Program-made: the position numbers and the translations under genes
Source: Acidobacteriota bacterium
Lineage (GTDB): Bacteria; Acidobacteriota; G020349885
Length of the DNA stretch: 64,000 nucleotides
Assembly (NCBI GenBank): GCA_020349885.1
Contig: CP070701.1
Location: forward strand, 1,910,339-1,974,338
Direction: 5' to 3'
Notes under the pieces: generated by a model
What the model was told of the DNA's origin: nothing
The model's input: the letters and a program-made list of their open reading frames with translations, nothing else
The model's database searches: none
Shown: piece by piece, positions 47,376 to 51,344 of the stretch
Position numbering within the stretch: position 1 is the first letter of the stretch
Layout: every line of letters begins with the position of its first letter

Positions 47376-47455
47376 GGGAGGAGCGGGGCGAGACCGGAGC
47401 CGCCTCGTCGTCCCCGCCGTTCGGGCGGGCGTTTCGCATGGCTCGAAAGACATGG

Positions 47456-47461
47456 CATAAT
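47456..47461 (+). promoter_or_regulatory. Extended -10 box of the chemoreceptor-SBP gene
   Basis: TGG-CATAAT with TG at 47453-47454. The -35 is poor (TTTCGC, 18 bp). The predicted start near 47468 lies after ATG 47438 and before ATG 47483, so it supports the latter. Confidence 0.45.
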
Positions 47462-47482
47462 AACCTCCTCCGTGGTTTCCTT

Positions 47483-50400
47483 ATGGATATACGACTTCTC
47501 GAAAGCGTGACGCGCGTGGCCAGACGACACGCCCGCTCGGCGGCCGCAGGGTTTCTGCTGGCCCTGATCGTCACGTGCGCTTCACTTTTTCTCGAGGGAA
47601 GCGCCTGGGCGCGAATCGTCGTGTTCGCGGTCTCGTGGGCCGCGGGCGCCGGCCTGCACGCGCTGACCGCGAGCAGCATCCTGAGCGCGAAGGCGCCGCG
47701 CTCCGGCGTCGGGGAAGCGCTTGAGCGAATCACCGGGGGCGACCTCACTGACGACGTTTTCCGCGGCTCCCAGCGCGCGCACCTCTCAGGGGCGCTTTAT
47801 TTCGCCGTGCGCAAGATGGTGCTCGAGCTGCGGCGCGCCGTGGGGAAATTCAGCCGCCTCTCCCAGGAGCTCGAGTCGGTGTCGCGGGGTCTGCTCGACA
47901 TGACCGACAGCCTTTCCTTCAGCGCCCGCGAGCAGGGAGACTCGGTCGAGGATGTCCGCCAGAGCCTGGCGGACACGAACGCCTCGGTCGCCGAGATTCG
48001 GAAAAACGTCCACAACCTCATGGACGTGGTGGGCAACACGTCGAGCGCCGTGCTGGAGATGGCGGCGAACATCGAGGAGGTGACGGAGTCGGCCCGAAGC
48101 GGCGCGGCCTACGTGGAGGAAACCACGGTGGCCGTCGACGAGATGGCGCAAAGCGTGGCGCAGGTGGCCGAAGCGGCGCGCGAGATCTTCAGCCGCGCCT
48201 CGGACAACGCAGCCTCCATGGCCGAGATGGACACGGCCATCGAGGAGGTGGGCGAGAGCGCCAAGGTGACCGCCGAGCTTTCCGAGGCCGCCCAGCGGAG
48301 CGCCCTCGAAGGCCGCGGCACGGTTCAACAGACGTCCGAGGGCCTGAAGAACATCCAAGAGTCGGTCGGCAAGGCGATGGCCGTGGTTCACGGCCTGGGC
48401 AAGCAGTCGGTCGAGATTGGAAAAATCGTCAAGGTCATCAAAGAGATCGCAGACCAGACGAACCTGCTCGCGCTCAACGCGTCCATCCTTGCCGCGCAGG
48501 CGGGGGAGGAGGGGCGCGGCTTCGCGGTTGTGGCCGAGGAGATTCGCGAGCTGGCGGAGCGCACGGCCACCTCGGTTTCGGAAATCACCTCCATGGTGAA
48601 GTCCACCCAGCGCGAGGTCACCAAGGCGGTGCAGCTCATGGAGACCACCTCGGGACGCGTGGCCGAAGGGGTGACCCTCGGGGTGAAGGCCGAGGAGTCG
48701 CTGCGCGTCATCATGGAGCGCACCCGGCGCGCCGTCGAGAACGTAGCGCAAATCGCCAAGGCGACCAGCGAGCAGACGCTCGGCAGCCGGCGCATCACCC
48801 AGTCCATCGACGAAATGACATCGATGATCGAAAAAATCAGCTCCTCGACCGAGGAGCAAAGCGAGACGGGCCAGCGGATCAAGAAGCGCACCAGCCACAT
48901 GTCCCAAGTCACCGCCCACATCTCGCGGGCCATGGAGGAGCAGAAGGCCGGAAGCCACGCCATCTCCGAAGGCATGGAGCGCGTCAACGCCATCGTCAAC
49001 GGCATCGAGGATGCCATCACGAGCCTTTCGCAGGCGAGCGAGACCGTCCTCCGCGCCGTCGACGTCATCAAGGAGGCCACCCAGCAAAACACCGCGGGCG
49101 CGCGCAGTCTCTACACGACGCTGACGGCCTTCCGCCAGGAAACGCTTCTCTTCCAGGATGCGGCGGCGAAGTTCCGGCTTCCCGAGCCGAAGCGCGGAGG
49201 CACGCTTCGCTATACCATGGCGGACTCCGGCGAGCTTAACCTCGACCCGGGCTTCGCCGAGACGATCAAGCAGACGGAGATGGTCTATAGCCTTTACGAC
49301 GGCCTTGTGCGCTTCGGCGAGGGAACGGACCTGCACCCGGCGCTCGCGCGGCGATGGAGCGTCTCGCACGACGGCATCAAGTACACCTTCTACCTGCGGG
49401 AAGGCGTCAAGTTCCACAACGGCCAGCCCCTCACGGCCCATGACGTCAAGGCCTCGTTCGAGCGAATGTTGCGGCCCGGAGGAAACTACCCTGCGGTATG
49501 GGCCCTCATGCCCATCCAGGGGGCTCCGGCCTTTCACGCAGGGGAAGCAAAAGAGGTCGAGGGGATCAAGATCCTCAGCGACTACGCCCTCGATATCGAG
49601 CTTCAGGAGCCCGTGGGCTTCTTTCTTTCCTATTTGACGCTCCCCGCCACGTCGGTGCTCCCTCGCGAGCTCTGCTCCCGAAAGGGCCCGGAGTTCAACA
49701 AGCAGCCTGTCGGAACGGGCCCCTACCAGCTTGCCGAAATCACGCCCGGCGAGCGCATCGTCTTAAAGCGGAACCCCGACTACTTCCTTCAGGGATGTCC
49801 TTACGCGGACGAGTTGGTCATTCGCCTCGACGTGCGCGACGCACTGCCCCTGCTTCGGCGCGGCGAGGTGGATTTCACGGCGCACCTCCAGCCCGAGTTT
49901 CTCCACGAGCTCCGCCAGGACCCCGCATGGGAGGCGAACATCCACTCGAGCGTTCAGCTCCACACTTCCTACATAGCCCTGCGCAACGACGCGCCCCCCT
50001 TCGACGACAAGCGCGTCCGGCAGGCCCTCAACCATGCGGTGAACTGCGGGGAGCTCAACCAAAGCGTTCACCACGGCGCCCACGAAGCGGCCGAGGGCAT
50101 TCTTCCGCCCGGGATCCTGGGGCACAATCCCGAGCTTGAAGGCTATCCCTACAACCCTGAAAAGGCCAAGGCCTTGCTGAGCGAGGCGGGCTATCCGAAC
50201 GGCTTCAAAACCGTGTACTACAAATCGCGCTCGGACCTCGGCCTTTCCAGGGAGGTCCAATTCGTTCTCGCCTCCTTTGCGCGGGTGGGCGTCGAGGTCG
50301 AAGTCCGCGACGTGAGCGAGGCCGAGCTCCGCGAGATGCAGCGCGGCGAAGACCAGCCGCCCATGTCCTACGCGGGCTGGTATGCGGATTACCCGGACCC

Positions 50401-50689
50401 CGACAACTTCTTCTCGAACCTTTTTCACTCGAAGAACCAGGACGTCGCGGGTATCCGCTACGGCAGTCCCCGCGTGGACATATTAATCGACGAGGCGCGC
50501 CGCGAGTCGGACGTGAACGTGCGCGAGCGGCTCTACCGCAAGGCCGAGGACCTCGTGGTCGGGGACGCGCCCGTCGTCTTCCTCCTGCACGAGCGCGCCT
50601 ACGTCGTCACGCAGCCCTACGTGGGCGGCGTGCGCCTAAATCTCACGCCGCCGCTCCTGCGCCCCGAAGACCTCTGGCTGGAGCGGTAG
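47483..50689 (+). CDS. Methyl-accepting chemotaxis protein fused to a family 5 solute-binding domain
   Basis: 1068 residues from ATG 47483 (an earlier ATG at 47438 is upstream of the predicted transcription start). Two adjoining membrane helices (about 20-39 and 43-63) with only a few residues between them mean there is no periplasmic sensor. A HAMP-like stretch ([14 protein letters not shown]) leads into a long receptor coiled coil with the hairpin tip [19 protein letters not shown] and [20 protein letters not shown] (about 325-360). At about 566 the coiled coil ends and a complete SBP_bac_5 (DppA/OppA-type) domain begins: [61 protein letters not shown], to the end. No signal precedes it, so the binding domain should be in the cytoplasm. 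It is likely a receptor for an internal peptide or sugar-phosphate ligand, as with SgrR. Confidence 0.9.
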
Positions 50690-50837: not shown

Positions 50838-51344
50838 ATGAAGAAACATCTCGCAAGGTACGCTTTCGCCTCAGCGGTCGTGCTCTGTCTGGGCGCGCTC
50901 GTATTCACCGTCGCAAGCGCTCAGGACGCCCCCAAGCCGAAAAGCGACATCACTTGGGAACAGGCCCATGTCGCGCTCAAAGCGGCCGCCAAGAAGGCCG
51001 AGGAGATTGAGACTAAGATGGACATCGCGATTGTCGACGCCGGCGCTAACCTGAAGGCGTTCGGCCGGATGGACGGCGCATGGCTCGGCTCCATCGACAT
51101 CGCCATCAAAAAGGCCAAAACCGCCCGCTTTTTTGACATGAACACGGGAGCAATCGGAGAACTCTCGCAGCCCGGCGGGGCGCTCTACAACATCGAGCAC
51201 TCGAACGGCGGCTTGATCACTTTCCCCGGCGGGATTCCCATCAAGAACTCGGCCGGAGAGATCATCGGCGCCATCGGGGTGTCGGGCAGCACGGTCGAAA
51301 ACGACCACACGGTCGCGCTGGCTGGAGTCGCGGCGATTTCCTGA
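50838..51344 (+). CDS. Exported HbpS/GlcG-family (DUF336) haem/cofactor-binding-type protein
   Basis: 168 residues. The signal peptide ends near TVASAQ; AGGAGA precedes ATG 50838. The mature part has the GlcG/HbpS fold pattern: [69 protein letters not shown], with the end ALAGVAAIS. Characterised members bind haem or corrinoids or scavenge metabolites; here no ligand residue can be proved. It is monocistronic, with its own promoter and a strong terminator, so it is probably expressed at high level and separately controlled. Confidence 0.85.

Follow-up and report, generated by a model that had tools for sequence, protein, structure and literature searches.

Domain organization of the fusion protein

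At positions 47483–50689 on the plus strand of the window (the whole 64,000-nucleotide stretch analysed here, 1910–1974 kb of the host genome) is a gene that joins a chemoreceptor (MCP) to a solute-binding protein (SBP) domain of the SBP_bac_5 type. The open reading frame is uninterrupted from 47438 to 50689 and encodes 1083 residues from its first ATG, or 1068 residues plus the stop from the ATG at 47483; the second ATG is favoured as the start by the homologues, which begin at this point. As claimed in a preliminary description of the locus, both Pfam domains lie in this one chain: MCPsignal at residues 265–448 of 1068 (E = 6.5e-44; 150.2 bits against a curated cut-off of 34.6) and SBP_bac_5 (E = 1.9e-90; 304 bits). 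Pfam detected no HTH in the protein, and no NCBIfam equivalog matched it, all scores lying far under the cut-offs. A first search of 60 genomes, including the window's own, yielded full-length homologues with the same domain order in 10 relatives.

Preceded by an Arg-rich N-terminal end are two membrane helices, TM helix 1 (residues 19–37, positions 47537–47593; Kyte–Doolittle mean of 2.2 over 19 residues; helix 2–34 in the model) and TM helix 2 (residues 45–63, positions 47615–47671; mean of 1.7; helix 41–70 in the model). The adjacent pair described earlier is thus recovered by hydropathy, and because only 7 residues separate the helices there is no periplasmic sensor domain. Following them is a partly conserved segment with a GDL motif (residues about 75–122, positions 47705–47848), which aligns with homologues and includes an invariant G86. 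The earlier designation of this region as HAMP-like stands in so far as the segment aligns; Pfam detected no HAMP domain after TM helix 2, and the segment is therefore HAMP-like at most. HAMP domains are common in MCPs but not obligatory.

The bulk of the receptor half is a long coiled-coil hairpin (residues about 125–562, positions 47855–49168; tip at about 323–347), delineated by Pfam MCPsignal and by homologue alignment. In the alignment, its tip conserves the class of residues that contact CheA and CheW, as does that of the host's own stand-alone receptor at 1181 kb, and the hairpin can be regarded as intact, as proposed earlier. One candidate methylation motif has the full consensus (residue 454), and relaxed candidate motifs are found at residues 194, 208 and 481. 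A point against the proposed receptor mechanism is that the positions of E385 and R388 in Escherichia coli Tsr, which mediate trimer contacts, are occupied by Leu and Gln in the fusion, but the sibling receptor departs in a similar way, with Ile and Gln. An 11-residue linker with the pattern F-x-[LR]-P-x4-GG (residues 563–573, positions 49169–49201), defined by a 17-member alignment and the model, leads into the binding domain (positions 49202–50686), which Pfam, AlphaFold2 and Foldseek identify as a complete SBP_bac_5 domain of the OppA/DppA type.

Fold and pocket of the binding domain

The AlphaFold2 model of the SBP domain (pLDDT 93.2, pTM 0.90) was matched by Foldseek over its whole length to solved SBPs, including YliB/GsiB (1uqw; TM 0.88/0.90), DppA, OppA and MppA, with the best E-value obtained for 8upi. 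The predicted fold is complete, in agreement with the preliminary description. The full-length model has a mean pLDDT of 78.9, with moderate values in the coiled coil and values below 50 at residues 192–224 and 455–488. At the junction, where structure prediction near residue 566 had been suggested as a check, the modelled helix ends at residue 562 and the first SBP strand starts at residue 574. The SBP domain follows the hairpin directly, with no signal peptide or lipobox before it.

Asp969 (positions 50387–50389) is the equivalent of DppA Asp408, the ligand-amine site of that protein, and both it and the equivalent of DppA W405 are invariant in 23 of 23 MCP-type SBP domains. The equivalent of DppA Arg355, the site for the dipeptide carboxylate, is not conserved in these domains. 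Retention of the Asp makes a ligand with an amine group likelier than a sugar-phosphate, and the lack of conservation at the Arg position makes ordinary dipeptide binding unlikely; the pocket residues together favour a ligand that would bear an amine and would not be simply a dipeptide.

The variable Arg position could also be read as a sign that the domain is a protein–protein docking or regulatory module instead of a small-molecule sensor, binding, for example, some protein of the cytosol, or a peptide tail through which the activity of a transporter or of pili is reported; SBPs dock naturally on permeases. We consider such a role unlikely, given that the D408 and W405 equivalents are kept in all 23 domains and that the cleft fold is intact in the prediction.

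Genome context and signalling partners

The host genome encodes three MCPs. One che cluster (CheR-MCP-CheW-CheA-CheC-CheD) lies at 993–999 kb, a second (CheA-AAA-CheW-receiver, with CheR) at 1242–1249 kb, and an MCP–CheW pair at 1180–1183 kb. Matches to CheW domains, CheR and other MCPs fall at 993–999, 1180–1183, 1242–1249 and 2320 kb, all of them outside the window, and the earlier statement that no che genes lie near the fusion holds. With a canonical tip, and with CheA, CheW and CheR encoded elsewhere, it is plausible that the fusion signals to CheA. No flagellin was found in the host genome by a search in which the controls worked, but type IV pilus/secretion ATPases are present. The receptor therefore probably controls either pilus-based motility or some response to nutritional state that does not involve motility.

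In the window, hprK and rapZ lie upstream of the fusion, and directly 3' of it is a gene for an HbpS-like protein (PF03928; positions 50838–51344) with an apparent signal peptide. The neighbours vary between lineages, comprising hprK–rapZ in the window, a divergent relA/spoT with ACT, DUF711 and RidA genes in the f3 lineage, and a polyprenyl synthetase in f24; the operon therefore permits no firm functional inference. Neither a transporter nor a che gene was found in the conserved neighbourhoods of the compared relatives, and the window has no adjacent ABC permease. Six loci of one lineage (L033, L034, L035, L036, L053 and L054) have a divergent relA/spoT beside the fusion, and several of them also have ACT-protein, DUF711 and RidA genes close by, a neighbourhood with a possible link to amino-acid starvation.

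Evolutionary origin and relation to SgrR

All trees were built by quick search. In the MCP tree, the MCP halves of 35 fusions fall on one side of a branch that separates them from 65 other receptors (SH-aLRT 96.9; the program warned of long branches, that of the window included); a single fusion event would be expected to leave such a single MCP clade. In the SBP tree, the halves from the fusions group in one clade with the SBPs of cytosolic Ser/Thr kinase and winged-helix proteins from the same phylum (SH-aLRT 95.6 after removal of the secreted L147, with a branch length of 1.88, as a long branch). When included, the secreted L147 sequence grouped with the cytosolic SBPs, and our confidence in a single origin of the cytosolic SBP clade, as judged from the trees, is therefore moderate. 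A recent capture of a local transporter SBP is unsupported, the two sampled secreted SBPs of the genome (641 and 1044 kb) lying elsewhere in the tree.

The stand-alone MCP of the same genome (1180.2–1182.4 kb, 719 residues) has FRL as its last residues, at the very point from which the fusion runs on into the SBP domain. It thus appears that a normal receptor gained the binding domain at its natural end.

Giant proteins of 1880–2140 residues, each with two C-terminal SBP_bac_5 domains, are encoded at five loci (L042:5468-11203, L043:1960-7638, L044:170-5806, L045:2548-8973 and L046:5703-11348). The three that were scanned (L042, L043 and L045) have the layout Ser/Thr kinase-AAA_16-TPR-SBP-SBP, and L044 and L046 align with these; they may be kinases of an undescribed kind that sense through two cytosolic SBP domains in tandem. 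At L140:3812-7465 is a Trans_reg_C-AAA_16-SBP_bac_5 regulator, a third output module of the SBP clade that includes the MCP fusions. Outside this clade are the Chloroflexota BTAD-AAA_16-TPR-SBP proteins and E. coli SgrR. The Chloroflexota AAA_16-TPR-SBP_bac_5 proteins at L098:2323-6255 and L119:2-2638, with BTAD in L098, are on the sequence evidence a separate capture of an SBP by cytosolic regulators.

SgrR of E. coli is the established cytosolic SBP_bac_5 protein, for which glutamate binding has been reported (PMC13060122). Its standing as the best-known protein of this kind, and the presence of the carbon/nitrogen regulators hprK and rapZ upstream of the window gene, could suggest that the receptor shares ancestry with SgrR and senses sugar-phosphate stress as SgrR does. 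This is quite improbable: the SgrR SBP has at most 24% identity to that of the fusion and forms a long branch outside the clade, the NCBIfam SgrR model gives the fusion 51.5 bits where its cut-off is 476, retention of the Asp at the amine site points to an amine ligand, and hprK–rapZ are not neighbours in the compared relatives. The position outside the clade and the sub-cut-off score led us to reject the fusion as kin of SgrR, which looks like a separate SBP capture.

The balance tips slightly towards the view that Acidobacteriota and their relatives evolved, independently of SgrR, a cytosolic OppA-type lineage that is wired to at least three outputs, namely chemosensory arrays, Ser/Thr kinases and winged-helix factors. 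If so, a periplasmic transport protein would have given rise to a general intracellular nutrient-sensing module, with a direct 'cytosolic taste' input to the chemosensory array.

Topology

Hydropathy analysis revealed no membrane-spanning segment between the hairpin and the SBP domain in any member, although a further helix at this place, which would put the domain outside the cell, had been raised as a possible objection. Six members (L020, L056, L188 (=L062), L191, L197 and L202) are devoid of any membrane helix and form one clade in the MCP tree; the N-terminal helices are dispensable, as this sister clade lacks them. In the helix-bearing members both helices are N-terminal and the hairpin must be cytosolic to reach CheA, which, with the Arg-rich N-terminal end of the window protein, places the C terminus in the cytosol as well. 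Because six relatives have no helices and none has a helix between hairpin and SBP domain, the latter is assigned to the cytosol, as the preliminary description had it, and kinship with the SBPs of cytosolic signalling proteins points the same way. Conservation of the fusion, the helix-less members and this kinship together lend strong support to the view that an otherwise normal MCP has its C-terminal SBP domain in the cytosol and uses it as the sensor.

Well-studied SBP_bac_5 relatives are extracytoplasmic, SgrR-type regulators excepted, and export of the domain by a cryptic third helix or a non-standard topology would allow it to sense a periplasmic peptide. Such an arrangement is highly improbable, since every member lacks a hydrophobic segment between hairpin and SBP domain, the SBP clade is common to kinase- and winged-helix-fused proteins that are necessarily cytosolic, and the helix-less members, together with the hydropathy, led us to reject export.

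Conservation of the fusion

A model restricted to the junction, with matches on one side only left out, detected the fusion in 31 of 396 sampled Acidobacteriota genomes (32 copies, 11 families), which bears out the co-occurrence of MCPsignal and SBP_bac_5 in one chain, for which an architecture search had been suggested as a check. An alignment-based scan of named genomes placed it in Aminicenantes, Thermoanaerobaculia and Blastocatellia of the Acidobacteriota and at two Myxococcota loci; a scan of genome contigs with a single fusion protein as the query gave no match, whereas the alignment query did. Plasmid DNA searched with the fusion gene returned only short matches to SBP genes, covering at most 13% of the query.

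Among the members measured, 731–747 residues separate the hairpin tip from the C terminus, and F84, P87, G92 and G93 of the junction motif are invariant in 17 aligned members. In four pairs, dN/dS was 0.03–0.16 in both halves of the fusion, which by this measure are under purifying selection. One relative, G123, has the fusion in two frames (L205:1286-4524; 728 + 361 residues), owing to a pseudogene or a sequencing error.

The same junction recurs in about 30 independent genomes and contigs, so the fusion is not an artefact, and the frameshift or assembly join near 49180 that had been considered is excluded. The lone gene without che neighbours and the split copy in G123 could be cited for a product of chance read-through or of assembly, or for a fusion in decay, with no joint function; this has a negligible probability against these identical junctions, purifying selection on both halves and single-clade phylogenies. 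By its sequence record, the MCP–SBP_bac_5 arrangement is an old, conserved gene family.

Proposed mechanism

In our judgement the protein probably senses an amine-bearing metabolite, or a peptide, inside the cell; it is built as a membrane-anchored chemoreceptor with a cytosolic C-terminal OppA/DppA-type domain and would signal through CheW and CheA. The two N-terminal helices would merely anchor the receptor, while the long hairpin would pack into a chemoreceptor array with its tip contacting CheW/CheA. The SBP domain follows the C-terminal helix without a gap other than the linker and so sits on the membrane-proximal side of the hairpin. Its lobes would close around a ligand from the cytosol, in the likeliest case a molecule with an amine group, for example an amino acid, an amino-acid derivative or a short peptide, and this closure would shift or repack that helix and so change CheA activity. 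The class of ligand, the way in which binding is coupled to signalling, the CheA that responds and the eventual output are inferred; the full-length model does not fix the coupling geometry because the coiled coil is too weakly predicted. The preliminary interpretation stands as regards a cytosolic C-terminal SBP domain as the sensor, whereas its sugar-phosphate option is disfavoured by the amine-site Asp. Overall, the family suggests that these bacteria keep watch on nutrients inside their own cells by means of a protein borrowed from transport.

On the usual view chemoreceptors sample the cell exterior; classic SBPs act on them solely from the periplasm, as partner proteins. In this family the SBP would itself be the cytosolic sensor, covalently fixed by a short conserved junction across 11 families. 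Such receptors are a good system for asking how a C-terminal sensor drives the MCP hairpin from its membrane-proximal end, and which metabolite is followed by SBP_bac_5 domains that lie inside the cell. The second of these questions also concerns DsvR and SgrR. The soluble family members should be easier to purify.

Comparison with known systems

No description of an MCP–SBP_bac_5 protein was found in a search of the main texts of openly accessible papers. The order noted earlier as reversed, with the signalling domain first and the sensor last, is seen here but is not unprecedented: chemoreceptors with a C-terminal ligand-binding domain (LBD) are recognised, if poorly characterised, and according to PMC7390727 Pfam contains 17 or more types of LBD placed C-terminal to the MCP domain, among which SBP_bac_5 may be included. 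What appears new is therefore the MCP–SBP_bac_5 variant, not C-terminal-LBD chemoreceptors as such. With those of the CZB type (PMC7390727) the fusion shares a hairpin that comes first and a cytosolic C-terminal LBD, but its LBD of about 490 residues is far larger and of periplasmic transport origin.

SgrR and DsvR (HTH + SBP_bac_5) likewise have a cytosolic C-terminal SBP_bac_5 sensor domain; their output is DNA binding, unlike that of the fusion, and their SBP is distant (at most 24% identity). The fold (TM 0.78–0.88) and the amine-site Asp are common to the fusion and to DppA, OppA and GsiB/YliB, which are secreted and have ABC importer partners, whereas the SBP domain of the fusion is fused and cytosolic, has no signal peptide or permease and does not conserve the carboxylate Arg. 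The stand-alone MCP at 1180.2–1182.4 kb is alike in hairpin length and tip, but its N-terminal region is about 200 residues long, Pfam detects a HAMP domain in it, and the protein stops where the SBP domain begins. Within the cytosolic SBP clade itself, the Ser/Thr kinase-AAA_16-TPR-SBP-SBP and Trans_reg_C-AAA_16-SBP proteins (L042–L046, L139 and L140) differ in their kinase or winged-helix output, their ATPase/TPR middle and their mostly tandem SBP domains.
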